From: Branchiostoma floridae
Taxonomy: Eukaryota > Chordata > Leptocardii > Amphioxiformes > Branchiostomatidae
NCBI RefSeq assembly: GCF_000003815.2
Contig: NC_049983.1
Span: forward strand, 12,431,454-12,495,453
Direction: 5' to 3'
DNA length: 64,000 nucleotides
Shown here: positions 829-64,000 of the stretch, piece by piece
How the letters are laid out: every line of letters starts with the position of its first letter
Numbering within the stretch: the stretch's first letter is position 1
Position numbers and translations under genes: made by a program
The notes under the pieces: model-generated
Database searches by the model: none
What the model was told of the DNA's origin: nothing
The model's input: only the letters and a program-made list of their open reading frames with translations

Positions 829-3800
829 ATGAGCCAAGCGAAGCGAGAGGCAGGCGAGGGCCAGCCCGGGACTTCGGAGGAGGCAGCGCCGCAGCCCGTG
901 AAGAGAGGTCGCGGCAGGCCGAGAAAAAATCCGGAAAGTAAAGTGTGTACACAAGCTGAGTACCCATTTCCGAGTCTTGCTCTGCGGTTTCTGCGGTTAT
1001 ATTGTCATAATTTCTGTGTAATTCTGACAGCGGTTTGTCTGTATTTCCCGATTTTCTAGCCTCCCGAAGGTCCGGTAGTGAAGAGGCCGCGGGGAAGACC
1101 ACCCGGTAGCAAGAATAAGAACCCTTCCAAGCGAGCGCAGAAGGTTTGCATTGCTCGGTTACATATCCCTTGATCGTTACCCTTTCCCGCTGTGGCTGTG
1201 ATTTTCGTTGTGACAATCAGGACGGGCTCATAAGGTTCCCACCACGAGAAATCTGTGAAAAAGGCACACATTTCTAAAGGGTAAAGAACGGATTTTGGGG
1301 GAATGAAGAACCGTTCGATAGCCTGCATTGGTTATGAGGTGAGGTTTGAGCTGTGTGTTTTGCGCTTCCTGGCTATAATCGGCTTGACCACTGATAAGCA
1401 AATGCATTTTAGCCACTGCCCCTTAGCACGGAAGACGTGCAGTGGCACTATCATGGTTTCTGATCACTCCAATTGTAACAGTTTCAGACTTATTTCGTGA
1501 TCTTCAACTTGGCGAGATTTTAGCCCTTGAGGTACATTTTTGCGCGGGAGTTTCATGTCGTCTGCTAGCAGACGACCTAAAGGCGCTCAGCCGCCATGAC
1601 TGCCTCACGGTGTTGATCAAGTGTCGTTTCAAGCTCCCCGTTATCTATTAAATCTACTTCATTCCGGACATGTCGTCTTAATATAGCATTATCCAGTCTT
1701 CCTTTGATTATGTTTGCACTTGAAAATTTTTGTATTTCCAATGAAACTAAAAGTTGCGGGCTTTGGGCGGCTGGACAGTGTTTGTAGCGGGCTGGGTGCG
1801 CTTTCGCAGTAGAAAATGTATCGCCCATTTTCGTCCAAATCCGGCCCTAACACTTGCATCAAACTGTATTAATTGTTTTGAGATGTGCATAGAAATGTAC
1901 ACAGAAATATGCAAGGATACTGTTTCTGATCTCTCTATCTTTCGGTAATTTCAAGGACGCTCCAAGTCCAAAGCGGTTTGTCCTGTGATGTGATCTGAGG
2001 TATGCCATGAATTGACTGAGCCGACTCTGTTCGTCTGGCTCTATTCGGAAACTATTAATTACAGTTTTAATCTAGACTGTGTGCACGAGTCGGAAAACGT
2101 ACCTACAGTCAAATTTGATAGGAACATAGCAAATAAGACACACAAACTAGCTATATCGCACAGAAATCCCCCCGCTACGGTAAAATCGGTAACCTCTGAT
2201 GAGGTGATAATCTGAACGCAGTGTAAAATACCTAAATATTTAGACAACATTCCTGGTCGCGCTATACTGACCATGGTGTATTGTGACTTATCAATTCCTT
2301 TTATGTTAGTCATTCAATACAAATGATGAGGTGTCACAATTGTATACCAAACCTAAAATATACACAACCTTACCGTCTTCATTGATGCCTGTAGAAAACG
2401 TTGCTAGCTGTTGGCCTACATATGTAGACAACAAGCTAAGGTTTGTGTATCTTTTGGCATTTAGCAGTATTAACAACTGTTTTGTGCACAGAATGCCTGC
2501 TCACATCACTCCCCATTGTTGAAATGTGTAATAGCTTGTGAAGGGCTAAAATCAGAAGAATGCAAATGTTTTCTTATGGGATTTGCAGCCAGTCATTAGT
2601 GCTGGTTGTGGCCAAAGCTTTCGGAAACAGCTCATTTGATTCCATCCATCAGCTCTCTTCGTTTCTGGACTTTGGTTGGCAATGAATAACCATCCCATTG
2701 GTTTATCAGCAACAAAAGACATTACCTTAGACTAATGGCAGTTTGTCCTGGCCTTTGTCTACTGTTTTATGTACATATTTGACCCGACAATTCAAGCATT
2801 CTGTGGGTTTAAAGAGCCCAATCTAAAGGTGTCCTGTCCACCAGCATGTACTAGTTAAATCATCACTGCTGATCGCTTGGATAAGCTTCATTTTCATAAA
2901 TGACTGTAAGGAGACAAGCAAACAGAGCCGTCCAGTTTGTTTTAGGGGTAGGCGGAAAGTGCTTCAAGAAGTTGTCACTTCAAAAGGGCCTGCCGTTGCT
3001 CTTGCAAAGTGCATCTAATACTGTGTTTAATGTTGCCTCACAACTTACCTGTGTACTATTTTGTCTGTTGTGCCTGACAGGAGCCGAAGAAACCCAGAGG
3101 CAGGCCACGTAAATGGGTAAGCATGAGTTTTCCTTCCTTTGTTTATGTGGAAACAAGTCTGTCAAGAATACTATTGCTGGCAGGTTAACATGTGTTCACC
3201 TTTGACCCGTTGGAAGGGGGGGTCATCAGGGACAGGAGGGCTGCAAACTGAGCAGTACTGTGTTGGAGGGGAGGGAGGTGTTGACATGTGAGTCATGGTC
3301 ACAAGACTAGGGGGGTGGGGTGAGCGACGTGGGCGGAGGAGGGGGGTCATGTGAGACCTTCTGGGGGTGGATACACTTCTTCAGCACTTGTTTTTCCAGC
3401 CACCACACAAAGGAATCCTAAGTCCACAATTATCAGAGTGGGTGGCGCAAACAGCCAAGACAAAATAGTTTGCTTTTATCTTCAAATACCTTTTACACCT
3501 ACAGTTGTTTCTGTTTTTCCCATCAGTAATAAAGCGCAGTCAACTGACAGGCATGCAGTGGAAGGAATGCGACCGACTTTACGTTCCTTACCTTGAATCA
3601 ATTGCCTTACTAAAGTTGACACAGTAAGCATTGAGGATCGGCAGTTTCTGTTGTTCAGTGTGTCTCCAGAAGTGTGGTAGCCATTACAAATGTGTTGGCA
3701 CTGATTAGGTGTAGGTTAAAGAGCCTTTTTACAACTTCTACCTCCAGGGGAGAGAGAAAGATTTCCGGCACTTCAGGCATTTCATTGTAGGGCAAATAAC

Positions 3801-6800
3801 TAAAAAATGCTTCGCTCAATTACTGTCAACTTTTGCCCCCCCTAGATATATCGTCTATAAACTGAGGAAATGCAACCTTGTGTCTGCAGATGGAAGTATC
3901 TGGCACTTTTATTTAGTTTTAAACTATGTCCTTTATGAATTTGTTGGTTTTATTATTCTGAGGAAAGGCATTCCATTTTGGTGTGCAGGATAGATGTTAG
4001 ATAGGTGCAAAAAATCGGGGCCAAAAAAAGCATCTTTGTAGCATACAAAAGTGAGGTCGAAACCGTTTTGAATGATCAAAGCTTTCACTGATATGACATC
4101 AGATTCTCACCTTTTTTGAAAGAACAGATGTGTTACGTTTTGAATATTTGTTATTGTTGAGAAACAATCTGCTACTTATTACTGCTTGCTGTGGATTTGT
4201 AGTTACAATAGCCTCAATAGAGATTTTGATATTTTTTCTGCAACTGAGTTTTGTGTTCTTCACTTCTTGGTTTCTTTGCTTCTGAGTTTTTGTTCCAGAA
4301 ATGGCCACAGTTCAAGAGGGATATGGTATTTGCATACTCCCGTGGCATGTTATTCAAAAGTAGTATCGTCTCTAAACTGAGTGTGTGTCTGAAGGAGTGA
4401 AATCTGTTAAGTGCACCAGTTTTCTTTATGTGAAAACAGAACCCCACTTCCTTGACCTTAGGTTTGATGCTGTGCACTGAAAATGTCCTGGTCAAGAATG
4501 TCTGTATAGTTCAGGGTAAATAGTGGACATTTTATGTACACTACGTTGCCATATCAGCATATGCTACTTGTTCTAGGGGCCTCGAATGGGCCCTGTTGAA
4601 TGAGAAAGGGATGTGAGTGCCTAAAGTAAACCACAAATACCAAGAATATCCTTCTCCTAAATACATTTCAAGCTGTCCTCTGTTGAACCAGCCTTACTAG
4701 AGAGTACATGTCCAAAGTGCTGCAGTCCCAGCAACCAAAGGCCTGTCCTTCCCCTGGTTGTACCTCTTTGAGCAAATGCAATTCCCTGGCCACTGCTTGA
4801 ACTGCCCAGGGTCAGCCAAGTTGGATGGCATGTCGGCATTGTTTGGGTATGGGGCAATTGCTTGTAGCAGAAACATAGCGGCTTGCAGGGGCTCCCAATT
4901 CTATCACATAGATTTCTGTCACCTTTCTGCTATATTTAGCATTGGAAATGACACCTAAAGCTTCTGCAGTATTCTTCCTGTCAATTATTGTACTGCGGTC
5001 TTTTTCGTTCATTGATTACTATGGATGGTTCTCACTACAAGGGTCAAACGAATGTACTTTTGCTCTTGTGATCAGAACTCTGCCTACATACTTATCATAC
5101 TGTAACATATTCCTGTATAAAATGGGACTGTTACAAAACAACCAAGGACAGCAGAAGAAAGCTCCAGAATGATTTGGGGCATTCCTCCAACAAAGGATGG
5201 AAACTGGGAGGTCAAGAAATTATTGTTCCAAGATGTGTAGTGAGCATGGATAATAGGATTAGCATTGGTGCAGGGCTGGGCTCACAAGCATGTCATGTAT
5301 GCAGAGTTGGAGTGGTCAAGTTGTGCAGTGGTCATACATGTAAGCTCAATGATACATGTTGGTCCTGTACACATTTAGTTCCTTCTATGATGGCAGCAAC
5401 ATTGTATCTTCGTGAGAAGATTTTACAGATGGTGTTATTATAGGACTGGTACGCACATATCAGGAATATCTCCAGGGCAGGCTGGTACAGTATGGGCCCA
5501 TGATATTCCATATTTGAAACATCAGTAATTCATCTATTCTACTCTACTCAAATGAGTTTCGACAGTAGGAATTGTTTTCATCTATGTTGAATAATTCTAG
5601 TACCTCAAAACTGCCTTTCTTGCAAGTCAACAGCTAACCAAATAATGAGACAGACATGTATTTGACATAATTCACTCTTTTTTGATGGAAATAATTTTCA
5701 CATGAGACAAAGTCATGTTGCAAAGAGTAAAAGTGAAAACTGAATCATGAAAATGTCAGTCTTTTGATAAGCATGTAGTTCTGCTCCATATATACCCATT
5801 TCTTTACTTCTTCATTGAACTTGACCATTACAGCATGGATTTTCTTGCTTGTTTACCACCTTGCGCCATTTTTTATGAGAAGATGAAATGTTTAAACTGG
5901 AACATTTTAGAGCTGTGACAGAAGATAGGGGGAATTTGGGCATTCCCAGTGCTCTGGAGTGACAAATTTGGGGTCAGATTTTTTAATTTCCAGCTCAGTG
6001 TTTCAATTAACCCACAGTCCTGGCGTTTTCCACTTGCCGCTGGGAAGCCAAGGACAGCAGAAGACCAAATTAGTCAAGAATTTGTCATGGAAGCTACTGT
6101 GCAAGCTTTCCTCAGTTCTGAAGGGTGTTCTAGCTGACAATATACACTTGCTGGAAGTATGGTATGGTTCCTTGTGAGTCAGACACAAGGTATGATGCCT
6201 TCAGGGCATCTGCGCTCCAAGGCAGTGGATGCCATACTAGATCCCATCATGGCACATATTTGTGGTTTTAAACATTGTGAGGATTCTTGCTCCCTCCTCG
6301 TTAAACATAGCAGTGGGCGTCACCTTTGTTGTTACTCTCTTACACAAGAAACGATCTAGCACCACATGCGGCGTGTGTTCTTTATACCAAGTCTGTGTTG
6401 GTATCTGCTTTAAAAGCCACGGTCAAGGGGTGTGCATCTATTCCGATTGGCCTTGTGGTTCTTGTGAGCAGGAGCCAGTTACAATAACTTCCAGTGTTAC
6501 TCGTTTCCTAGCTTACAGCCAAAAAGTGAGGATCACAGCCAGTGAGTTCAGCAAGGCGAGCCTTCTCAATCAGTCGTGCAATTTTTGTCATTATTACCAC
6601 AACAAGTAAGAGAGAAGGAAATGTCCACTTCTCCCAGTAGACAAGGATTACCCAGATTTCCCCTCTAGGCATGTCATTTTCTGAAATATTTGCCCTGTTT
6701 GACCTACAGTACAGGGAGGCCATCGGTGATTATAGGCATTCAAATGCAGACATTTAAATCTGTAGTCGGTTCAACTTAAAGACTAGGAGATCTAAACTGT

Positions 6801-9800
6801 GGGTATGTTCTGTATATAGCTTAGCTGAATAAGTGGCTCCTTAAACAGAGACAACCATGATCTGGTTTGTAGTTAAGACATACCCCTGTGGAGCCCCTTG
6901 TCAGCTGGTTAATACTGGCCCTTTAAAAATGGCCGCAGCCCAGGATAGCCCTTTAAAAATGGCTCCCACTTAGTAGTAGGGCTAGGTAACAAACCCTGCA
7001 GACCTGTCATGTCCTGGACTCCGTAAACGTGTTGGCCACTTTGAGCTCTTTGATTTTGTAAATTATAATAATACCCATGAATTTAAATAGAGGATAAATC
7101 TGTAAAATGGAAAAAATATGTGGTCTAAGCTTTTGTGCAATCAAGGAGATCAAGAGGAGTAGCAGGTGTGGTAGGACAGAAAAGGTAACACTTAATGGTA
7201 ATAAATCATTGGAAGCTTAATAAGCTCAAATCTGGTGGCTAATTTAAGGGGCCCTGCAAGGGTGAAAGGTGGCCCTGTGTGGGACTTACCTGTCCCAAAT
7301 AGAATCACTACATGGAAATGAGCCCTGGAATGTGTGCATTGCAGCAAAAACAGCTTAGTATTACCTCAATGTGTTTGCTTGGGCTCTTGTTACCCAAACC
7401 AGATGCTTGAGCTAGTCCTTTCATTGACCCTGGGACCTGAGCAGTGGGCATTCACGTGCCAGGGGCAGGATCCCTACACTAGCTCTACACGCTGAGTGCA
7501 AACCCTAGTCCCCTTTTGTTGACCCAAGCCTACAGGTACAACCGTCCTCTGCCATGATACCAACCCCAATGCGAGTGTGGCAAAGGATTAAAGTCAAGTA
7601 TTGGCACATTCTTTGAAAAGTGTGGAATTTCTTCAAGTATTTCATGGGTCAGGCACCCTTAATAAGGAGGAGGAGCAGAGTGGAGTTGGTTCCTCTGAGC
7701 CTGCCCAAGTCCTTTTCTCTGCTGATCTCCAGGGTGACTCCTGGGAGGAGTACAACACTCCTGGCTTTGTTGCCTGGCTCTCTAGAGGGGCCTCAGTGCC
7801 AGAATGTGAGAAATTCAAGGATGTTTCGCCAATAAATCAAGGCAAATATGTAGGACAGTGCTGGCCTCTAGATTTGTCAGCATGTTGGGGTGGGTCATCC
7901 TGTCATGCTGGAGAACACTGTTGGTTTTCTGTGTTAGAAACCATATGGTGGGCCGGGGTTACAGCAGGAAGGCACAGTCAGTGTTGTGGGAAGTGGGAGG
8001 GGCGAGCGCCAAGTTCAAAATCACCACGCAGTTTCCTCCGCCACCGCCGGGCCCCTGTAGAAAAGGATGCAGGAACTTTTGGTGAAGTGTTTAATCAGGA
8101 GACATCTTTCAGCCCGGGAAGGCTTGCTGAAGGCAGGAAGAGCCAAGGATAACCTGAGCCTTCTTGTGGCAGAATGTAAACAGGGACCCCGGAGAGCTCA
8201 GGTTTCCCTCCATTCCAGCGCTGTGGGGCATGACCCACTGGGACAGTACAAGGACAAGGTCACTGAAATACAACTCTCCAGCATTCCGTTTTCGCTGTGA
8301 TTTTCATTTTGTTTTTCCTTTGTGAGAAGCCTTTGTGGACTGATGATCGTTAAATATACAGTATCTGCTTATACTATAGGAGCAGTCATGTTTTAGATCC
8401 TTTCGTATGTTTACCGTGTAACGGTATGCAAAGGTTATGTGTATCTTAATGTTTTGTATCAGTCCCACATAGATCGAAATATATATAAACAAGTTGAAGA
8501 AAAAAATCTATCAGATAGAAATACAACATAATTGACACACATTGGAGAGCATGTATAGCCATTGAAATGATGCATAAAAATGATATACCTGTCACTAAGG
8601 CGCGATCTACACACAGTTTTTCCCGATATCGGCGAGCCTACTACCTCTCGCCGACAGCTTTTTTTCAGTGTCTAGATGCAACTACTATATCGCCATTACT
8701 ATATCGGGAAAATTTCTCTCGAATGGTCCGGACCATTCGTAAGCCATCTAACGATACCTTACCGATACCTCAGCAGGGGTCCCCGACATGTTCCGGGCGC
8801 GTGTAGATGCTCCGCGAATTCGCGAAGTTCATTAGCATATAACTACAGTTAACGCGGGCTCATTAGCATATCACGCGGGAACAGCGGCATATTAGCACGG
8901 GAGAGCAAGATGGCGGAGGGAAAAGCTGGGCGCTCCCGTTGCACATGGAGCCTTGCAGAAACCGCCTTTCTTATAAGTGTATGGTCGTCGGAGGAGATCC
9001 CAAAAGGACGCGGGATTCCTTGGTACACCCCTGTGTACAGGCTCTCCACCCTCCGCCACAATCAGGACAGCGAGAAAGAACGCTGCGTTCACTCTAGCCG
9101 GCCGCTGTCATCTCTCCCTGTATCTCAATCGCCTCCTGCGCCCTACCCTTGCATGGCGTCTCATGTTTAAGATCACGCGCATGAGATACAGAAAGAACAT
9201 TACCTGATTGATAACGAGTGGAAAAGCTAGCGGCATTCCCGCCATTTTGAAATCCGCGGGATGTGTCACCAGAGGTCAAAAGGGGTCACGAATGTTCCGC
9301 GCCGCGGGTGTTCCGCGCTACGAGCGGATATCCCGCGCTACCATTGGCAAAATGTGTCTAGATGCGCTCCGATATCGGCCCCGCCGATATCGGCGGATGC
9401 GGCTATATCGGGAAAAAATGTGTCTAGATCGGGCCTTAATCCATCGGTTTGGATTTCTAGCTGGTTCATTTTTTTTTATACCCAACCTATGGATATACAT
9501 GTACCTCTTGAGACCCAGGGATGCCTGCACTATAGAGTCCACTAGTGTTTCTAATCCTCTTATCACCAATGTCTAGCCAGGTTTAACATTTAAACATGGA
9601 AACCATGACCATATCTCTTGAATTATGAGTGGCAAAGCTGGTAAGAAATTCAGCCAGCCAGCCAGCAGGCTTTTAAGTCCTCTTATTGGCCATATTGACA
9701 GGAGCGGCTGCCACATAGAAATGCTTTTAAAGCGACATAAGTCCCCCTGCCAATATTACTCTCACCATACTGCCTCCACAGGTTTTACATGTCACTGAAC

Positions 9801-16944: not shown

Positions 16945-17044
16945 NNNNNNNNNNNNNNNNNNNNNNNNNNNNNNNNNNNNNNNNNNNNNNNNNNNNNNNN
17001 NNNNNNNNNNNNNNNNNNNNNNNNNNNNNNNNNNNNNNNNNNNN
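16945..17044. other. Assembly gap (100 N)
   Basis: A run of exactly 100 N, likely an arbitrary-size scaffold gap. Confidence 0.98.
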
Positions 17045-39000: not shown

Positions 39001-42000
39001 ACAACGGCATCAAGGTAATCCACTTAGTATCCAGTTGCTTGAGTAACTGCTTCTTGGCATATCTTATTACCTGGATTACCTGGATGTCTAACCTTCAACG
39101 AGTTTCACCATTCTTGACTACTATTGCAGGTCCTGCTGAACCTATTCACTGTGAAATCACCAATCACCGATGCTGACGAGATCCGTGCCATGGCGTGCCG
39201 TGCTCTGTGTGGTTTGGCACGCTGCGACACCGTCAAGCAGATCATCAGCAAACTGCAGCTGTTCAGCTCGGGGGAGATGCAGCGCCTGATGAAGGAGCCC
39301 ACCCTGCAGGAGAAGCGGCAGGAACATCTCAAGTTTGTGAAGTACGCAGCCGAGCTGTTGGAGAGGATATCGGGCAAGCCGGTGTTGTCTGGTTACGAGG
39401 CCACGCTGGCAGGATTGAACAGGGCGGACATCGTCGCACAGACGAGGATCGCGTACAACTCCAAAGAACTGATGCAACTCATCCACAACCACCTCCTGCA
39501 GAATGGGATGATGGAAACGGCGGCGTCCCTACAGCGGGAGGCGGGATTGGGCAGGGTCTCCCCGCACCACGAGCCAATCAGACACTCCGCTGCACACCAC
39601 ACTCCCATACCCATGGCGGCGGCACCTCCTCAGGGACACAAGCTGGTCAGGGTTCCGGCAGGAAACATGGGTGCCTCAACCAGCTCCCCTTTGAGCGGAC
39701 ACTTGAAATTTGTACCTCCCATGTCGGGAGCCTCCAGGACCAACAGGACTCCGCACTTTGTCCGACAGAAATCCCAAACAGCCGGCGGGAACTTCATGCC
39801 GAGCCCTGTGATGAGGAAACAGATGATGAAGACGTCCCCCGCCCCTCCCTCACTGGACAACATAGTGAAGAAGTACCTGGCAGAGCAGCACTCGCACTGC
39901 AGGAACCCTGTCTCCACCTGCCCACCGTTCTCCCTCATACAGCCCCATCACTGCCCAGAACCCAAATACCGCAGACAAGCACCAAACAATGTTGCAGCGC
40001 GTCTCGTCCGCAGAGCGGCCTTCCCCATCTACGGCGGGCTGGACGGGTCTTCGTACGACCGTCAGTTCATCTACAGCAGATTCCGACCGGTCCGTATGCT
40101 GAGAGACCCTGAAGGCGACAGTTCCTTCACGTGCTGTGCGTTCATGCCCTCCTCCTTCTACCATAAGTATGTGGCGTTAGGGACCTACTCCGGGGAACTG
40201 AAGATGTACAGCCTGATCTCAGGTACAGAGGAGGGGACGTACGTGTGTCATAACTGTGCAATCACACACTGTGAGCCCTCTAGGGACGGCAGTCTCATGC
40301 TCACCTCTGGTTCGTACGGTCGGCCACTGTCGGCGTTGTGGAGCATGAACGGAGTGTTCACCAGGAAGATGTCTATAGCTGAGGACAACCATGTGGAGTT
40401 CAGCAAACTGGTGCAGGTTGGTGGGAATCTATGTAATCTATAAAAGATAGCTGTGACACAGTAAGACTGTTAAGTCACCAATTTGGAGGCAAAGCCTATA
40501 CTATAAGAGAAAGGTTCCTTGACTCATTTCAGCGAAAATTATGATTGGGTAATGTTTAAGACAGATTTCTCATATTTTTAGGGCTGTCTACAGCTTAAAA
40601 CTTGTTTCCATCCCACTCATTGTTTGGGAGCCCATGTTGTTGATTTTCATGTTAAGCTTATGAAAATATGTTTTTATGAATCATATGTCATAAATTTAAG
40701 ATTTTTTGACAGGCGGGGTGAACTTTTGTTCCATCCCAACAAGCAAATTTCTTTTCTGGGACAGAGGAGAGAGAGAGAGAGAGCCCCAAATGTAATCTAC
40801 ATTGCAAATGTAACCCACTTTGTCCTCAGGACCGAGTCATTGGTACCAAGAACGAGATCGCCCATATCTACGACATCCAAACGGGCCAGAAAACCCTGAC
40901 CCTGGTCGACCCTGACCTGACCAACCGCTACAATAAGAACAAGGCCACGTTCAACGCCACCGACGACATGGTGCTTTCAGACGGGGTATTATGGGATGTC
41001 AGGTCGGCGAAACCCATCCACAAGTTTGACAAGTTCAATGGGAACATCAGTGGTGTGTTCCACCCCAACGGTCTGGAGATCGTCATCAATTCTGAGATTG
41101 TATCCTTTCAACTCAGTTAAGGTGTTGTACATTTGCTAAAACATACAGTCAAACCTGGCTGGCCAACCACCTGGCACAGGCAGCCACCTTCAGTAACAAC
41201 CCACATTGCAACAGTTCTGTCCAACTTAAAATATTTAAGGCCCTCAGCTAAACAATATTTACTGTCCCTGTCCACCAATATTTTATCTATGTTTAATGCC
41301 TTTGCATTAATGAGGTTAAGTACTGTACTTTGGATAGAATTCTTTTGCCCTGTCGCCGTTCTGCATAGATGTGTGAACAAATTGAACTGGTTTGGTCTAA
41401 TGTAGCTATTACACATTTTTGAGGTTTGTTTCCATCGTTTATCATGAGTCAGGGCTCGAAATACTTTTTTCTGCATACCTGCACTGGTGCAGGTAACATT
41501 GAAAATTACCTGCACCAGACAAATTTTACCTGCACCACTCTGAATTTAGGAAGTATGGATCATACTAAAATTGTTAAGGAACCATTGTTATTTTTTTCTT
41601 TCAATACATAATCAGAGGCGGCGGCAGGAAATTTCGTCTGGGGGGGCGAACTTTTACTAACAGAATTTTGCGGCTCACGCTTACGTGGCACGACCACGCT
41701 AGGGGGGTCCGGGGGCATGCTCCCCCGGGAAAATTTGAAATCTAGACCCTCTAAAACGTCATTTCCTGCGTTTTGACGGGCAAATCTTGCTGCCAGACTA
41801 AGCAAAGTTTGATGGCAATTCTGTTAGAAAGACACATGGTTTTAGCGAGGGCGATGCCCCCAAAATATTTTCACGATTTCGAGTGCCGAAGGAGCGAGCT
41901 GTCGCAAGGTTGGTTTGTCTTGGGAAATTTCGAAATCTGCACCCTCTGAAACGACATTTTCTGTATTTTGATGGACAAATTTTGCTGGCAGACTATGCTA

Positions 42001-45000
42001 AATCTTATGCCATTTTTGTCAAAGAAAAAGATGTTTGAGGGTGATGACCTAAGCTACCACGCACAAATTTTCACCATGTCGTTGTGAGCGCCGGAGGCGA
42101 AATTCATCGCTTGGGAGGTCCGGAGAAAATTTTAAAATCTTGACCGTCTGAAACGTCATTTCCTGCATTTTAGTGGCACTTTCTGCTTGTAAACTAAGCT
42201 AAGTACGATAGTACAATTTCTATTGGTTTAAAAGATTTTTCAGAGCAATGCTACAGCAAAATATTGTCCTGCGCAAAAGACGCAGCCGTCACAAGGGAGG
42301 TCTGGCGAAATTTTGAAATCGGGACTCTCTGAAACGCCATTTCTTGCATTTTCAGGGGTAAATTTTGCTGTTAGACTAGCTTGATTTTATGAAATTTCCA
42401 TCATCAAAAAAATACACAAGGTTTTAGCTTGATAAACATATAACATATTTTCCGGGGGGGGGGCAGCCGCCCCCCCTGCCCCCCGGTGCCGCCGCCACTG
42501 ATAATAGGTGTTAACAGTCAATGCAGCTAATAACAATCCACATACACCTACGTCATAGGACAATTATGTATAAAACCCAGTACATCGACCAGTGCAGGTT
42601 AGGTGCAGGTAGACATCAGAAATACCTGCACAGCTCCAAATTTACAATTACATGCACTTACTTGCATATGCAGGTGGTATTTTGAGCCCTGTGAGTGTAG
42701 TATAGCCCAGTATTTTGGCTGTTGTGTGAATACAAATCCAATGTGTGCAATGCAAACAAATGAAACCTTGACCCTGACCCAGTGGGACATGCGGTCCTTC
42801 CACCTGCTGCACACGGTGCCCTCTCTGGACCAGTGTCAGGTGGTCTTCAACAACAACGGAATGCGTATGTCGCAGGTACGTGATNNNNNNNNNNNNNNNN
42901 NNNNNNNNNNNNNNNNNNNNNNNNNNNNNNNNNNNNNNNNNNNNNNNNNNNNNNNNNNNNNNNNNNNNNNNNNNNNNNNNNNNNNNNNNNNNNNNNNNNN
43001 NNNNNNNNNNNNNNNNNNNNNNNNNNNNNNNNNNNNNNNNNNNNNNNNNNNNNNNNNNNNNNNNNNNNNNNNNNNNNNNNNNNNNNNNNNNNNNNNNNNN
43101 NNNNNNNNNNNNNNNNNNNNNNNNNNNNNNNNNNNNNNNNNNNNNNNNNNNNNNNNNNNNNNNNNNNNNNNNNNNNNNNNNNNNNNNNNNNNNNNNNNNN
43201 NNNNNNNNNNNNNNNNNNNNNNNNNNNNNNNNNNNNNNNNNNNNNNNNNNNNNNNATTGATGTGAAACGGAACATCTTTGACCTGGACACGGATGCCTCG
43301 GACCATTACTTAGCGCTAATCGAGGTGAGACATCTCCACCCCATGCTGTACATGTGACAACAAGTGGAACTCAGGGGTACCACTAGCACACACGCACGGC
43401 TCTTTATGTTAGCACAATTAGGAAAATAGTCTTTCTTATCAGTGTGGGAGCGACAGGTTTTCCCTGCATAGGCATTTGTGGAAATGACTTTGCCCACCTC
43501 TGGCCCGGACGTACGTGTGTGTCTGCACACATGAGCCACAGCTGCATGCACCGTTGGTAACCGTGGTGATGTCGACATGGGTGGTAGAGTAGCGCGCCTG
43601 TATACCTGTACCTGTCCGGTGTTTCTGGGGTATCACAAAAACTGCCTGCAGAAAAGGCAGATATTAGTAAGTAACATGATTAGATTGTATTGTTGAGGTA
43701 CATGTACACACTATTGGTAAAGTATTGACTGTTTAGATATGATGCTGATATTATGTTTTGGTGATTTTGGAGTGTCAGAAATTCTGTATGTCTAGTGAAG
43801 GAAATTGTTATTGAACAATAATGTCAATTGTGTTCTCAGCAACAGATGCAGAGGCATGCACATAACTGAGAGCTTTCCCATAGGATTGCAACAACCATTC
43901 AACAGAGCAAAAACTAGTAAAATCAGTGATTTTTAGCAGATCAGAGTTGATACCTTGTTTTTCTGTGTTCAGAATCAAGGCAACATGGACTCCCTGTCTG
44001 TGGAGAGCGTGTGTCGGCTGTATGAAGTGGGGCGGCTCCGGGTGGATGGAGAGGATGATGAAGATGAAGAACAGGTAGGCTAGATCTCCTCATCACAGTC
44101 AGGGACAGGCTTTTAGCCAGGTGGGTGTACAATGTACACCCTGTTAAGAAAATAGCACAAATTGTACACCCTTACACTGGGAATCAGATCCTCTGACAAG
44201 CATGAAATTCTGATTGACCAGGGATGCTGCAGGTCACACTTGGCATGTCTTACAGTAAATTTGCACCTCAAAATGTGGGAAATGATGTTTCAGAGAGTTA
44301 TAAATTTCAGAATTTTCTGAGTGAGGATGTCCCCAGACCCCCTACAATACTCGTGCCTGCAGCGCTCGCCTGATGGCAAGAAATTTGGACACCCTATGGA
44401 AAAATCCTAGCTAAAAGCCTGGTCAGGGATCAGGCAGTAGTGTTCTGGGCCACACTAGTAACCCCATGAGTTAGTTATCTATATATATATATAGCTCAAT
44501 GTTTTACTCTCAAAATTGATGCCTTGTAGTCCCTGCCTAAAGTGACAGCCACAGGTAAATTTGTATTTGTTTTAGCAGTTTTAGTATGCCTTTTAAAATG
44601 AACAAACTAAAGGGCCTAGGTTTTCTCACAATGGGGCAGGATCCTTTAGAACAACCCATTGATGCAATGCTTGATCTATGCTAAAAGTTGATCACTTAGT
44701 CCTGGTGTTAAGGCCTACTCAACGCAAGTCCCAAAGGTCTGTTCGCAACTTTTTAACTTAAATGTGTAGACAATCCTACTGAAAAGTCTCATTGGATTGA
44801 ATGGTAATTCATATTAATTGACTCTCCATTGCCTTGTTATTTTGAGCTATACCCAACTGAATTTTCTGGGCATCTTTGCTGATGTCTAAGATAAGTCTCT
44901 ATTGTTCTCATACACCAGCCATTTTTCTTCCCTGCTGACTTGCAAATTGCCAGCCTTATCTGTGTTTTGGAGAGCAGTGTGGAATGATGAAGTTCCCGGG

Positions 45001-57065: not shown

Positions 57066-58173
57066 ATGGTTTTGTCGTTTCGTTTTTCCCTGGGGGTGGT
57101 ACTTGTACTCCTGGCCATGGGGCCAGTTGTACCAGGCGCACAGGTTAGTATAACTACGCCCTGAAGTTGATGTGTACCTTACCAGAAATCTTCAGTTCTA
57201 ACATTACAACCGGATGACGTTCGAAAATGCGCTTTTAGTTACTGAGTAGATCATGTGGCACCGCCACAATAATCTTATTCATTTACCGCATTGATCCATC
57301 GGATCCACCTGTCTCTTACTAATCGAAAGATGGCCTGTAGACCGCGAAAGTAATTATGACTCCTGGCAGTGAGGAACATATCATTGTCTGACAGAGATTT
57401 ACACACTGCAGGCCAAGTGGACGAGCCTAGCCCGAAGCCGTCGTGCCGGAGTCCTTTGCAAGTCGGTCGCAGACTGTCAGTCCGGAGAGTGCTGTCCCGA
57501 GCAGCTGGGTCGCTGTCTGCCCCTGCTGACCGAGGGTCATCTCTGCCGCCCCTTCTCCATCCAGCGCGGCCATGACTGCCCCTGCACAGTCGGACTTCAA
57601 TGTAACATACCGAACCAAATGAAGAGTCGGCCCGTGGTCGTCCAATCTGGCACATGCGCATCGGTAGAGGCGCAAGAAGAGCAAGCTCAGGTAAGTTGAA
57701 CGTGTGCAATATGACAGGATGTCCACATCTAGATAGACGCCATGAAGTCAAATGTTACCTGTGTCGACTCTTAACACCTTTAAACTCACAAGTCTACTTA
57801 CTTAGTGCTGACTAGACTGCACAAATTACTTGATTATTTGTGGTGGCAACGGGTGCCATATGGCTTAGAATTTCACCCGGTAGCTGCTTTCATCAGCGCT
57901 AAGATGGTAATTTCGAATTCGCATTAGCATGAACATACTTACTGACGAATTACAAATGCGGACTTACACCATAGCTGCTTTGTGTTTTTTCCACATCACC
58001 AGGAGACTAGTAAACAGGCACCCCGGCCTGGCCCCAGTGCCTTCCGCCCAGGTGGCGGGAGGAGGGTCCCCTCTCAGGAGCGGGTCCGTAACCTCATCCA
58101 TAAGATGGCCGGTGCTACAGCTGTGGGCAGGAGGATGCCTACTTCTACTGGCAGGAGAGTCTGGCGGGGATAG
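57066..58173 (+). CDS. Secreted ten-cysteine protein, prokineticin / Dickkopf-C2 fold, with GRR-rich tail
   Basis: Exons 57066-57143, 57412-57690 and 58003-58173, all phase 0, encode 175 residues. Residues 1-26 form a signal peptide (LGVVLVLLAMGPVVPGAQ). A dibasic RSRR precedes the core. The core has ten cysteines (residues 42, 48, 53, 54, 61, 71, 82, 84, 90, 108) with spacing C-x5-C-x4-CC-x6-C-x9-C-x10-CPC-x5-C-x17-C. This pattern is shared by prokineticins, astakines and the second cysteine domain of Dickkopf proteins (compare the PLLTEGHLC and CPCTVGLQC blocks). The N-terminal AVIT motif needed by prokineticins is absent, and there is no Dickkopf C1 domain. The tail (120-175) is basic, contains three Gly-Arg-Arg sites (138-140, 161-163, 169-171) and ends in Arg-Gly. 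It is likely a secreted ligand; its receptor and function are unknown. Confidence 0.8.
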
Positions 58174-59620
58174 ACCTCAGGATAGTCTCAGCTTCATCTT
58201 CCGGGAAAGATCCAAAGTTGTACTGTCAGTTGTCATGAGAAACCTTCTCACATTCCTTTCGCCTGTGCAATTAATCAGACAATACTACTACTACCACTTC
58301 TTGCTCAACGATGTGGAGGAAGACCAATTCTTTTTATAGAACATCTTAAACATTTCTGTGCATGAGACCTAGGAATGGAACGCATTGCTTTCTGTCTTTA
58401 GTAGAAATCACTTATGGGTTGACTCACCCCCTGGCTAGTGCTTGTAATGCTGTGTGTCCTAGCTAATACCTATGGAAACGGAGCCACCCAATACACAGTT
58501 ATCTAAATATAACGTTAGTTCTGGTACATGTTCGTCTTTTTGTATGCGTCTCTGTACAATTCACATGCACTTGCAGGATATCTTCGGTACGAGTTACCAT
58601 TACGCACACGCAAAGGTTACGTAACTGAAGAACTTAATGTTAGTAAAAATCTTCTGGAAGGTACAATGACGTACAGTCTGGTGCATGGCGCCCATACCGA
58701 CCATACCGGCCGATAACAAAGGTTGCTTTTATAGTATGGTGTGGTATGGTATGGTATGGTATGTCAATGTTTTAGCAAATAACCACGTACAGAATTCTAA
58801 AGATGGAGTGACATTGAACCCATGAACAAATACGTTTGTAGTTCATGAAGTCAAAAGCCCTACGTCCCACTTATTGCGCATTGTTTAACACAAGCGTTGT
58901 AGTCTAGGTAGTACCGTCTCCAGTCTCTATCAAAGGGTCGGCTAACGCACAGGGAGCACACTACTCAGTCTACAAGCTCAGCTGTCTGACGTTAACACCA
59001 ACGGTTGACTCGTTAGGGAAACATTGATCAGTCACTTATCAATAACAAACTCATCTCGCTCCACTGACATCAGGCATAGAACAATGGGGAAAAACAAGAC
59101 AAACCGCGCGTTGGTATTGATTGCTGGCGTACAACACCGCCAAAATATCGATAAAATTAGGTGTAGTCCATTCGGACATTACTTTGTAAGATCATGGCGT
59201 CTGATTATTTTTGTGACCATTCGGTAGCTTACGGTGACACGCCTAGGGAATGACGTACATTATCCAGCGATGCTGTTTTATGCGAGACTTGCGTGAGAGC
59301 CGGTCCCAGAGGACAAGTTATTTGGAAGGGACCGAGTAGTGCCTCCGCGTTGTCCAGGTGAAACTCACCTGGGACAAAGGTGGGCACGGAAAGTGTGTTG
59401 ACCTGGATATCTGACGCTTTTCACAAACCGCGTGGGATCACGTGACCGGTGGAACGTTACACCTGAGGCAACAAGGTGGAACAAAAGGGACGAACTCCAA
59501 CCTTTCAACTTGGCGTGCCTGAGGGGGTGGGGTGAGCAGGTAACCACAGTACACATCTGGACGGGGGAACGGCAGACTGGAAACGGTCCCCTCTTCACCT
59601 GAAGCAAAGGTTCCACAGCA
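58174..59620 (+). other. Downstream region of the cysteine-rich gene and 5' flank of the TIR gene
   Basis: I see no gene. It contains a GGTAT microsatellite (about 58738-58763) and, near 59438, TCACGTGAC, an E-box of the CLEAR/MITF type, about 180 bases before the TIR gene start codon. A small CCAGGTGA/TCACCTGG inverted repeat lies near 59356. Promoter function is inferred from position only. Confidence 0.4.
58738..58763 (+). repeat. GGTAT pentanucleotide microsatellite
   Basis: About five tandem GGTAT units. Confidence 0.85.
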
Positions 59621-62600
59621 ATGGAGACTGCCACACCTGAACCAGGTCAGAAACTGTCACCATCGGTAGTTTATAAAATGTGCCGTTTTTCATGACATGA
59701 ACCGCTAATCTATAAATCATACACACAAGTTCATAAAGGGAACAATACAGTGCGCCCTTTTGGGTCACACCTTTTCGAAGACGTGTCGCCATTAGCTTTG
59801 TATGCTAATGTTTCCAACGATCCCCGTTTAAAGGTTTTGTTAAATATGGGATCTTGTTACGACTAGATGCTTTAATACTGTAACTTAGTCGTTGTTAGTT
59901 TTTCGCGAAATGATACGCCAAAACATCCAACAACTGACTTGTTTTATACGAAGATTCATTCTGGTTTGAACAGATGCAAGGTATTGTTTTTTTAATGAAT
60001 TGCACAATGGCAGTGATGTATTCTCCCACGTACGGCTCATGTGATAACGATATTCGCGAGCTCGGCGTTCGTATGGACCAGTCGGGGAGAACAAAGGAAC
60101 TGCAATGTGGCCCGGGGTCACCAGTACCGCTATAACAGATGATGTCAGTCCCAGGGACCAATCATTTTTATGTGATGAGAAATGTGTAGACACGTGAATC
60201 CTTCTTACAAGCGATAAATCCGGTAGCCATTCTTGGCATCGCGATAAGATCCTAAGAAATCTTTTATCAATCAACGGTTAATGATACGACACCCTGCTTG
60301 CTGCTCTTAGATAACGTATCTCTTGGGGTTCAAAACGTGATTCCGATTAAGTAAAGAGAATCATTGACTTGCGTCAGACGTCGATAAGAATAAATAGAAT
60401 ATACAAAACAATAAACTAAAGCATGACGTCTCCCCACCTATTGTACGAACATCTGGCAAGCGTGTATCCACAGCTCATGTGTACTGTTAAATCTTTTAAA
60501 TATTTGATTGTAAAATTTCTCTACGTGCCGTATGTATGTATGTAAGTACATGTACATGTTCATGTACTCAATCTTTTTAGCGAAGGCTACAGTATTCAAC
60601 ATAGTTTTATGAGACAAAGGTATATGTGGCTCCAATTGACAGTACATTTTCCGCTTATGTACTGCAGCCTGCCAGCCGCCCACAGACGATGACGTGGACT
60701 ACATGTACGATGTTTTACTGTCCTACTGTGACAGGAACCGGCCCTGGGTACTGTACACCCTCGCTTCGGAGCTGGAAAGGGACAACAGCTTCGTACTGTG
60801 TCTCAGAGACAGAGACTACGAGTCTGCTAAGCCCAGACTGCAGAACTTCGTGGATTTTGCCCACATTAGTGCGAGTATTGTGGTGGTGTTGTCGGCGGCC
60901 TACTTGGCGGATGGACCGTGTCAGAAAGAACTAGACCGCGCCATCGCGTCAGGGAGGACAATGGTGGCCGTGCGGTTTGATGGATGTGAGATTCCTCCTC
61001 CGCTCAGGGAGAGAACAGCTGTGATGTTAGACCGCAGTGACGCGGCTTTCTGGGACAAGTTACACAGCTTTCTCCGCACCTATCAGGTCTCCACGCCTTC
61101 ACATGCAGGTAAATGTTAGAAAACACTGGAGTTTACTTTCTTTACGTCCTGCTAGAAGAGAAAAGGAGAGAATTTAGTGTTGGGATAAAAGGACAATCGA
61201 GATTTTGGTCTACATACTTTGTTGAAAAGTACGCCACATTGATGCGTCAGTCATTGTACGTAAAAGACACGTCAATCGTAAGATATTTTCAAGAAACAAT
61301 TGACGATAGGAAATGTGAATATATGTACAGGAAAGTGTATTTGTGACCCCACCGACCTCCGCCATGTCTCTTCTCTGATTCCTGACAGGTGCATGCTGCT
61401 ACCAGAAAGGGAGAAACACTAGTTTTCCCATCATGCCTCGCGTGGTGGTGGAGCGTCCCCATGACGTAGACGCTGTGGTGGTTCTGGTACAGATTACCAT
61501 GGAGACGCTGAAGGGGCTGGGGAGGGCAGGTGGGAGGAGACGGGAACCCCATGTCGTCGGGGTTGTGGGGGAGGCCGGTGTTGGGAAGACCGTGCTGGCT
61601 CTACAGGTGGCGCGGAAACTAACGGAACTCGGCAAAAAGGTACGATCTTTTCTAAGGATCATATCCCATTGATTTTGATTCGCTACATACTGATTTTGCT
61701 TTTAGCCAATCGGAGTTGTCGTTACAACAAACGTTTGACAGTTCCTGTCCGTGGTGCTGACTCGACTGCACAACTCTGAACTGAAAAATATTCTACGACA
61801 GAGCGCTATTCATAGTGGACTCTTTGTAATACCAAATACCAAACCTAGCTATTTTTGTCTGTCCTGTAGGTTTTCTGGATGTCTGTTGGTGCACACCCTG
61901 ACATTCTCCACAACCTTACACGTCTGGCAGCCGCCATGGCCGGCCGGCAACTTTTCTTCTCGGAGCTGCCTGATGTAGTGAACTTTCTCATGACCTTCAC
62001 GGCAGGCAAAGACTATGTCGTCATTTTGGACGACGTCCAGGACGCAGCTGACGTCTTCGACGTCATATGCTCTCTGGCGGGAAGCTGTGTGGCGTTCGTG
62101 ACGTGTAGAAATCAGGGGATGTTAGTGAGACTTCACGTGCCGCCGTCAAACGTACACGTTCTGGGCGGCTTGACTGGGACCGCGGCCGAGCTCCTGCTTC
62201 TGCGTAGTGCAGGGCTTCACGGAGAGTTAAAGCAGGGTGATCCGAGAGCTGAGGCGGTGGCATCGATAGTACAAGTGTGTAACTACATACCCGCGGCGAC
62301 TGTTCTGGTTGGGTCGAGCGTTTGGAACCCGAAAGACCCCGACTGGTGGAAAGGAACTGCCAGGGATCTTAAGGAAACTGAAAATGATCCCCACACCAGC
62401 AAGATATTAGGGAAAGCGTTGCACGTTAGTTATGACTCTCTGCGAGGAGAAACTGTGCGGCTCTGTCTTATTGACTGTTGCGTGTTCCAACCGGGAAGAG
62501 ACATCCCTTTGACTACACTGATAGTGTATTGGAAGTACCGGAGGAACATATCAGAAAGTAGCGCGCGAGGCGCCCTGTATCAGCTGTATAGTCGCTCTTT

Positions 62601-64000
62601 TATTCAAAGGGGAGGTCAACATTCCAGTTACCGCTTCCATACGTCTGTACTCAGTTACGTGAAGGCGATGTTGAAGGAACCAGAGTCTCAGCTGCATAGG
62701 GATCTTCTGGAGTCTTGCCGTACGGTGGGAGGGGGGACATGGGCGGAGTGCCTCCAGGACGGGTATTACTATCAAAATGCCGCTCATCACTTCGTCAGGG
62801 CGGGTTGGACCAGTACACTTGTCAATCTTTTGACGTCATTTCGTTGGCTTAAAGTCAAGCTCACGCACACAGATGTAACGTCATTATTGTCTGATTTTAA
62901 GGACTTGAAAGCACTGACGCCTTTTCCTTCTCCTATACAAGAAGTACTAGATACAATTCGTCTCTCGGGTCTTGTTCTTGCCATCGACAAGTCCCAATTT
63001 GAAGGACAGTTCCTGGGTCGATTGTTAAAATCGTCTCATCCTCGTATTCAGAAACTGATCTCTGAGATCCAGCGGGAACAGAGGGGTGATGTTGCCTTGT
63101 ATCCATCCTCAGCGTGCCTGGGTCGCCCGGGAGGATGTTTAGTTCGGTCGTATTATGGGCACACAGACGCAGTGTTGTGCGTTGTGGTTACAAATTTTCC
63201 CGACAGAAAACGCGTCTTTACGGGCTGCAGAGACTTCACCATACGGTCCTGGGAGCTTGGCTCTAGCCGGGACCTGGGCGTTCTACGTGGTCACCGCGGC
63301 GAAGTGTGTGCGCTACACCTGAGAAAGGACGACAGGTTACTTGCCTCAGCGTCGTGTGACTGCACCATCAAACTGTGGGACACAAACAGGCTCGAGCTGT
63401 CCGCCACTCTGACTGGTCACGAGGCCGGGGTAACAGGAGTAGCGTTCACTCTGGACGGGAGGGGTTTGGTCTCGTGTTCTCGTGATGGAGTGTTGAAGGT
63501 TTGGGAGGACACAGTTCAGATACCGTCTGTTTCAAGACTCTCGGTATACAAAACCTCGATGACGCGTTCGCTCTCCTCGTACGGCAGTTCCTGGAACATC
63601 AAGAAAGACTTGGTCGCACACAGCAGTCAGATCACAAGCCTCTGTTTCTTTCACTGCAGCAGTAGGGTGGCCACTTGCGCTGCTGATTCGCTGATCAAGA
63701 TTTGGGATCTGCAAGAAAAAGATCCAACAAAACGTGCTGGCACGCTCAGAGGCCACCGGGATATCGTCCGCAGCGTGACCATGACAAAGAACGATGCGTA
63801 TCTCATATCCTGCGCAGACGACAAAATCATCGCTTTGTGGAACACTGAAAGATCACTTCTCGTCAGAACCTTGGTAAATCCAGATGGACCTGTAGCCGCG
63901 ATATCACTGTCGCCAGACGATACCACACTTGTGTCAGTAGGTGGCGCTTCTGAGTCAAGTGTCAGACTGTGGAACCTACACACAGGACAGATCATTGGTA
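59621..64000 (+). CDS. TIR / NB-ARC / WD40 STAND-type receptor, 3' end outside window
   Basis: Exons 59621-59645, 60668-61108, 61389-61639 and 61870 to beyond 64000; phases agree (1, 1, 0). At least 949 residues are visible. The small first exon (METATPEP) is inferred from its matching phase. TIR domain, about 19-145: box 1 YDVLLSYC, LCLRDRDY, and SAAYLADGPCQKEL, in which Glu96 aligns with the catalytic Glu of NAD-cleaving TIRs. NB-ARC, about 180-510: Walker A GEAGVGKT (216-223), Walker B VVILDDVQ, sensor FVTCRNQ, winged-helix SYDSLRGETVRLCLIDCCVF, and an MHD-like FHT. Then a helical linker like that of Apaf-1-type proteins (DGYYYQNAAHHFVRAG, QFEGQFLGRLL). Then at least six WD40 repeats from about 664 (GHTDAVL, GHRGEVC, GHEAGVT, AHSSQIT and GHRDIVR blocks). 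It is probably a cytosolic oligomerising sensor of immunity or cell death, Apaf-1-like but with TIR in place of CARD. The ligand is unknown. Confidence 0.9.

Follow-up and report, generated by a model that had tools for sequence, protein, structure and literature searches.

A TIR-bearing Apaf-1-like gene and two predicted paralogues in the lancelet Branchiostoma floridae

The combination of TIR, NB-ARC and WD40 domains in lancelets is already known and was published in 2008. In amphioxus, Zhang et al. 2008 (PMC2575513) listed "TIR-[NB-ARC]-WD40s" genes, in the plural, and read such genes as linking apoptosis with innate immunity; this type is not among the cDNAs that the relevant section of that paper names. 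A single amphioxus Apaf-1 homologue with TIR in place of CARD (TIR-NB-ARC) was described by Zmasek et al. 2007 (PMC2246300). Both studies used B. floridae JGI models. The genes in these two accounts share their domain order and animal group with the gene analysed here, and probably include it; the passages that treat them give neither the exon structure nor the helical domain, both of which are given below. These accounts rule out a 'never described' architecture. Two further systems are close by description: a TIR-NBARC-WD40 protein named from the red alga Chondrus crispus (PMC9806590), with the same three-domain order, and the lancelet NB-ARC protein BbeApaf-J of the Apaf-1 group, which together with Apaf-1-like receptors was presented as a DNA sensor, with dsDNA binding tested (PMC11747288). 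In the parts of the open-licence literature covered, we found no functional study of TIR-NB-ARC-WD40 lancelet proteins.

The window analysed here is a 64,000-nt stretch of the Branchiostoma floridae genome (GCF_000003815.2, NC_049983.1, 12,431,454-12,495,453, forward strand), in which the gene spans 59621..64000 and continues past the end. The predicted features are as follows.

59621..59645, + strand: exon 1, 25 nt; putative start of the coding sequence, with an ATG and a phase 1 donor, CAG/gtcaga; from sequence only
60668..61108, + strand: exon 2, 441 nt, flanked by phase 1 introns; the TIR exon, matched by TIR_2 and TIR
61389..61639, + strand: exon 3; linker and start of NB-ARC, Walker A GEAGVGKT at aa 216, phase 0 donor
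61870..64000, + strand: exon 4, the last exon as far as the window end; remainder of NB-ARC, then the APAF1_C helical domain and the first WD40 repeats
within 61870..64000, + strand: exon 4 motifs; Walker B VVILDD at aa 289 and, in the MHD position, FHT at aa 495
within 62437..63129, + strand, stretch scanned alone: partial APAF1_C (PF17908), profile positions 3-79 of 135
66103-66105 in window-extended coordinates, + strand, beyond the window end (contig to 12497558): TGA that ends exon 4

The four exons join in one phase-consistent frame, as the initial annotation had proposed: the three introns are all GT-AG, with phases 1, 1 and 0, and the spliced sequence runs for 949 residues inside the window with no stop. 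The last exon runs through 1411 open codons before reaching the TGA past the window, giving a protein of 1650 aa with no internal stop across the model; the chance of such openness at the local base composition is about 1e-29. For the TIR exon the corresponding chance is 0.003, weaker than for the last exon, although its TIR domain match is not weak. The 25-nt exon 1 is the least certain part of the model, being proposed from its ATG, donor site and phase; an in-frame TGA lies upstream of it, at 59600. The window holds no second copy of the gene, which matched only itself at E below 0.5, and Rfam and ARAGORN gave no match within it. Bacterial contamination was considered and rejected in view of the spliceosomal introns, the chromosome-scale contig and the two paralogues described below.

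All three domains proposed initially exceed their Pfam cut-offs, in the proposed order. TIR_2 (PF13676, cut-off 28 bits) reaches 41.0 bits in the spliced protein and 45.3 in the TIR exon taken by itself, where TIR (PF01582, cut-off 21.3) scores 28.0; on the spliced protein, NB-ARC (PF00931, cut-off 23.5) scores 55.7 bits and WD40 (PF00400, cut-off 27) 145.5. Six WD40 repeats pass singly up to aa 949, and residues 950-1650 reach 83.6 bits with no repeat passing singly; WD motifs and length along aa 664-1600 would allow two beta-propellers. Between NB-ARC and the repeats, APAF1_C (cut-off 22.8) scores 35.6 bits over part of its profile. The N-terminus contains no CARD domain, and a TIR is found there. 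The APAF1_C match above cut-off therefore points to an Apaf-1-like protein with a TIR where CARD would be. Against the PDB, residues 207-582 match Apaf-1 best (E 5.4e-11), with the plant NLR 8zf0 near it (E 8.9e-10), and the last exon matches 2ymu best, a generic WD-40 repeat protein. Walker A (the P-loop) and Walker B are intact. Bacterial models matched poorly: NCBIfam gave one weak match over NB-ARC (E 1.7e-5; 23.2 bits, where the cut-off is 1125), and in PADLOC no anti-phage family matched the TIR exon, exon 3 was matched weakly at its P-loop (E 0.004 and 0.007), and exon 4 was matched by a HEAT-ARM model over the WD40 part only.

Canonical Apaf-1 is among the closest known systems, and the same genome carries a separate CARD-NB-ARC-WD40 gene on another contig (C7), whose CARD (PF00619) is matched at E 6.8e-19. 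This gene bears out the earlier statement that the TIR occupies the place of CARD. Like the window gene, it has NB-ARC, APAF1_C, C-terminal WD40 repeats and a coding sequence lying mostly or wholly in one exon; it differs in its N-terminal CARD and is 22-24% identical. When a profile of the NB-ARC regions of the window gene and its two paralogues was run on 12 NB-ARC loci drawn from the listed genome matches, it scored the CARD-bearing gene at 78.8 bits, and of nine other loci outside the family three scored at most 16.5 bits and six had no match. The NB-ARC tree (8 rows; the 5 of 12 loci with no match were left out) is poorly resolved, with weak support of 73/81 for the trio, and no argument is built on it. 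With a TIR in place of the N-terminal CARD, the window gene is classed as an Apaf-1-like paralogue and not as the canonical Apaf-1.

The two paralogues lie on other contigs (C4 and C6; the window gene is C5), so by prediction the B. floridae genome holds at least three TIR-bearing Apaf-1-like genes. All three agree in domain order, strand and intron phases, and each ends in a single giant exon; the exon 2 phases and the exon 3 boundary are the same in C4 and C6, and each of the three has a partial APAF1_C match above cut-off. The three TIRs group together (support 92/96). The initial annotation had called the domain order uncommon. Within this genome it does look rare, a TIR match lying close upstream in 3 of the 20 NB-ARC matches listed; the architecture itself is already published. 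The NB-ARC and TIR lists are lower bounds, the latter taking in only TIRs similar to the window's, and the NB-ARC search also matched 6 of 14 control genomes, above cut-off in 3.

The paralogues bear indirectly on whether the locus is one gene. It could instead be two adjoining genes, a small TIR-only one and an Apaf-1-like one, that never share a transcript: the TIR frame, if read on into the intron, meets a stop only 9 nt beyond the donor (61117-61119), and an in-frame Met in exon 3 before the P-loop (FPIMPRVVV) could start an NB-ARC-only product. Such an arrangement is very improbable, given the phase-consistent GT-AG introns, the codon-level conservation of the TIR exon, and the persistence of order, strand and phases on three contigs across TIR-to-NB-ARC introns of 280, 864 and 488 nt. 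Because two paralogues keep the same order, strand, intron phases and giant last exon, and the TIRs group together, the comparison argues strongly that TIR, NB-ARC and WD40 belong to one predicted gene.

Of the three, the window copy has diverged furthest, with identities of 510/1516 to C4 and 564/1576 to C6, against 727/1561 between C4 and C6. Its MHD position reads FHT, compared with IHR in C4, LHD in C6 and VHD in the CARD-bearing Apaf-1, and the loss of the Asp from the window copy and C4 implies that nucleotide control may differ in them. This divergence and the altered MHD position would fit a copy that is decaying or has been neofunctionalised, acting as a constitutively active protein or a regulatory partner and not as a sensor. 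We regard this as unlikely: the 1650 codons are uninterrupted, both Walker motifs are preserved, C4 likewise lacks the MHD Asp, and identity is highest at codon position 2, then 1, then 3 in all nine region-by-pair comparisons, the TIR exon included, a pattern of constraint found in all three regions.

The kind of TIR was assessed with a profile built from the TIRs of the three paralogues and searched against solved structures only, at E up to 10. It matched Toll and TLR structures (E 1.9e-13 to 6e-5), MyD88 (3e-9 to 4e-9) and a metazoan TIR-STING (E 6.7e-6), and marginally the TIR of plant RPS4 (E 0.4); no SARM1 or bacterial TIR structure was matched at that limit. The window's TIR exon by itself has the TLR2 TIR as its best PDB match (E 1.6e-7), and all three paralogues retain the FW of TLR box 3. 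From its sequence, the TIR thus reads as one of the TLR/MyD88 kind rather than the SARM1 kind. None of the three has the Pro-Gly pair that marks the BB loop of TLRs (RDYESA, RDYDVG and RDFEPD; the Gly is kept in C4 and the Pro in C6), and they may therefore not dock in the classic TLR-MyD88 manner; in a count by eye over 20 further TIRs from this genome, 19 have the BB-loop Gly and 8 the pair. AlphaFold gave the TIR exon alone a mean pLDDT of 41.5.

These matches also weigh on what the TIR would do. Plant TNLs, like the window gene, place a TIR before NB-ARC; they differ in having an LRR sensor in place of WD40, the window gene further differs in its APAF1_C after NB-ARC, and the resemblance to the RPS4 TIR is marginal. 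The locus might accordingly encode an animal resistosome, in which oligomerisation turns the TIR into an enzyme that cleaves NAD+ and so kills the cell or makes a nucleotide signal, in the manner of plant TNLs, SARM1 and bacterial TIR-STAND proteins. The TNL-like placement of a TIR on an NB-ARC oligomer, the RPS4 and TIR-STING matches and the missing Pro-Gly pair would suit such an enzyme. So would the Glu of the C-x-x-E-L (CxxEL) motif, which we take, from SARM1 and plant TIRs, to be the catalytic position and which is kept in all three paralogues. The same Glu is present in the TLR2 TIR, regarded as a scaffold, and is therefore not diagnostic of an NADase. With this, and with strong matches to TLR, Toll and MyD88 but none to SARM1 or bacterial TIR structures at E up to 10, we consider the enzymatic resistosome rather unlikely. 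The profile matches make scaffold signalling likelier than NAD cleavage for the window TIR, NADase activity being possible given the conserved Glu. The product had been put forward as an NAD-cleaving or signalling immune sensor; of these, the NAD-cleaving part is the less likely, and the immune-sensor role is putative.

The reading that we prefer, with somewhat better than even confidence, is a lancelet Apaf-1-like gene in which CARD has been replaced by a TLR/MyD88-kind TIR, the Apaf-1-type wheel clustering TIRs for signalling. Its Apaf-1-like part is argued by the domains above cut-off, the Apaf-1 structure match, APAF1_C in all three paralogues and the score of the CARD-bearing gene with the NB-ARC profile; its TLR-type part by the profile matches and box 3. 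On the model of the homologous Apaf-1 apoptosome, WD40 propellers would keep the protein closed until a ligand binds, and exchange of ATP or dATP at NB-ARC would then lead to wheel assembly. In the wheel, several TIRs would come together in the place that the CARDs take in Apaf-1; once clustered, they may contact adaptors of the TLR pathway (MyD88-like) by TIR-TIR association, with inflammatory and/or death signalling as the outcome.

Several observations lie on the other side of this Apaf-1/TLR reading: the lost MHD Asp, the absent BB-loop pair and a plant NLR match close to that of Apaf-1, and also 2ymu as the best match of the last exon, the trio's NB-ARC tree support and the low pLDDT.

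A bolder and unlikely extension is a chordate 'TIR apoptosome', in which a ligand-sensing Apaf-1 wheel would cluster NAD+-consuming or filament-seeding TIRs. There, a phase 1-1 TIR exon would have been inserted for CARD and kept as three ancient paralogues, making an independent animal counterpart of the plant TIR resistosome.

Beyond the published lancelet architecture, this analysis contributes a model of the 1650-aa protein, identifies an Apaf-1 helical domain in it, adds two members that share its exon structure, and indicates that the TIR is of the TLR/MyD88 rather than the SARM1 kind. The gene illustrates how a cell-death scaffold may be rewired to immune signalling through the swap of one exon, and lancelets offer a setting in which such rewiring can be tested.

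The initial annotation had read the gene beginning at 59621 as four exons that join in one consistent phase to encode a TIR / NB-ARC / WD40 receptor. This reading was borne out by the intron phases and by Pfam searches, which give the following model:

59621–59645, forward strand: receptor exon 1, from splice-site and frame reading
60668–61108, forward strand: receptor exon 2, TIR_2 and TIR (Pfam)
61389–61639, forward strand: receptor exon 3, in which NB-ARC begins (Pfam)
61870 onwards, forward strand: receptor exon 4, remainder of NB-ARC and WD40 repeats (Pfam)

All introns are GT-AG, with phases 1, 1 and 0, and exons 1–4 form a single open frame. In the profile search that the initial annotation had proposed as a check, TIR_2, TIR, NB-ARC and WD40 each exceeded the curated Pfam cut-off. 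The last exon reads through 1411 codons without a stop before reaching a TGA in the locus downstream of the window (L009), giving a protein of 1650 aa. Past the window, the receptor sequence reaches 83.6 bits for WD40 (cut-off 27), with no individual repeat passing alone there, and a partial APAF1_C helical domain lies, above cut-off, inside a 231-aa stretch C-terminal of NB-ARC. Runs of N occur at 16945–17044 (100), 42885–43255 (371) and, in the extended window, 66937–68883 (1947 bases); the receptor gene is free of them. The gene is real, was read correctly, and is longer than is visible in the window.

Just upstream lies a gene (57085–58173, forward strand) that we take to encode a small secreted Cys-rich protein resembling prokineticin/Dickkopf-type folds; a signal peptide and a CQSGECC pattern were recognized by eye. 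Downstream of the receptor, a related arrangement of cysteines is seen in an ORF (L009, 6818–7303, forward strand), and a short TATGG tandem repeat occupies 58730–58763, in the stretch that separates the receptor from the Cys-rich gene. Farther upstream, ORF reading identified one more feature, which we presume to be DCAF1/VprBP-like:

39118–40443, forward strand: 441-aa open frame

Among solved structures, the top PDB sequence match of receptor residues 207–582 is Apaf-1 (E = 5.4e-11), with a plant NLR near (E = 8.9e-10), and that of the TIR is TLR2 (E = 1.6e-7). The whole last exon matches a generic WD-40 repeat protein best, with Apaf-1 ranking lower (E = 1.1e-37).

The genome (513.4 Mb, 431 contigs) yielded at least 20 matches to the NB-ARC model, some of which may be other P-loop ATPases, because the same search also matched 6 of 14 control genomes, in three of them over the cut-off. 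Three of the 20 matches listed are preceded at short distance by a TIR match in the same orientation. They are the window's gene, on contig C5 (where the window spans 12431454–12495453), and two paralogues, on contigs C4 and C6. The TIR search finds only TIRs similar to that of the window's gene, and the C6 TIR was listed as a fragment. The three genes share intron phases (1 before the TIR exon, 1 between TIR and NB-ARC, and 0 just past Walker A), and the remainder of each gene is one exon, 4.1 to 4.3 kb long. The C4 TIR passes for TIR_2 (50.1, cut-off 28) and falls narrowly below for PF01582 (20.6 vs 21.3). The C6 TIR is split by an extra 79 nt with TTTA repeats (L028, the C6 locus, 3109–3187), which could be interpreted as an insertion or a short intron with GT-AG ends; the donor on the 3' side of the C6 TIR, AAG|gttgtgg, is weak. 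Protein identities are 510/1516 (C5–C4), 564/1576 (C5–C6) and 727/1561 (C4–C6). In all nine comparisons (three pairs by TIR, NB-ARC and WD40 regions), conservation is highest at codon position 2 and lowest at position 3, a pattern consistent with that expected for coding sequence under selection.

A separate gene, on contig C7, is a 1280-codon single open frame with CARD, NB-ARC, APAF1_C and WD40; judged from its sequence, it is the canonical Apaf-1:

L030 (G000:C7) 4313–8152, reverse strand: canonical CARD-NB-ARC-WD40 Apaf-1, 1272-aa coding frame, apparently intronless

The vertebrate Apaf-1 gene, in contrast, has many exons. A profile built only from the NB-ARC regions of C4, C5 and C6 was run on 12 of the 20 NB-ARC loci listed, among them the C4 and C6 loci that are also in the profile. 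The C7 gene scored 78.8 bits; of the other nine loci, three reached at most 16.5 and six had no match. A tree of the NB-ARC region (eight rows, five loci without a match being excluded) was poorly resolved, with support of 73/81 for the trio, and carries no weight for the Apaf-1 relation. The MHD position reads FHT in the window's gene, IHR in C4, LHD in C6 and VHD in C7; given these differences, regulation may differ among the paralogues.

The TIR exons of the three genes have lengths divisible by three (C4, 396 nt; C5, 441 nt; C6, 209+217 nt) and lie between two phase 1 introns, as an exon suited to shuffling would. Among six other TIR exons of the genome that were examined, five (on contigs C8 and C16) show a phase-matching candidate acceptor near the TIR, along with candidate acceptors of other phases; at the sixth, on C7, no clear same-phase candidate was seen. 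Similar TIR exons (YDVFISYSS...), five with a candidate phase 1 acceptor, are clustered at G000:C16:4.05–4.11 Mb and C8:24.4–25.0 Mb. In the simplest account, an Apaf-1 copy with few introns would have exchanged its CARD for a TIR exon, and duplication would afterwards have carried it to three places.

In a tree of 23 TIRs (the trio and 20 of the 26 other genome places listed), the C4, C5 and C6 TIRs cluster together on long branches with support of 92/96, just under the tool's starred level. Their joint profile matches Toll, TLR and MyD88 structures in the PDB, followed by a TIR-STING fusion (6.7e-6) and plant RPS4 (0.4); neither SARM1 nor a bacterial TIR appeared at E up to 10. All three retain the FW of box 3 and the CxxEL glutamate, which cannot separate enzyme from scaffold because TLR2 has the same residue. 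The BB-loop Pro-Gly pair is missing from all three, C4 retaining the Gly and C6 the Pro; by eye, the 20 other TIRs have the pair in 8 cases and the Gly in 19.

The TIR-NB-ARC-WD40 architecture has already been described. Zhang et al. 2008 found genes for 'TIR-[NB-ARC]-WD40s' in the amphioxus genome and treat them as connecting innate immunity directly with apoptosis; the cDNAs named in their section 9 are for several hybrid genes, this type not among them (PMC2575513). Zmasek et al. 2007 reported one amphioxus protein of TIR-NB-ARC architecture, with CARD replaced by TIR (PMC2246300). Other reports place TIR together with NACHT/NB-ARC in Hydra viridissima (PMC7642931) and describe TIR-NBARC-WD40 from a red alga (PMC9806590). 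A search of open-licence papers found no functional work on the architecture. The additions made here are incremental: a complete gene model, a gene structure shared by three members, the helical domain and the TIR type.

By homology to Apaf-1, the receptor would rest as a closed monomer, ligand would bind the propellers, and nucleotide exchange would be followed by assembly of a wheel that clusters the N-terminal domains. Nucleic acid is a reasonable candidate ligand, since dsDNA binding is reported for the B. belcheri relative BbeApaf-J and likewise for Apaf-1-like proteins of fly, mouse and human (PMC11747288). Given the TLR/MyD88-like TIR, the output would likely be the recruitment of TIR adaptors.
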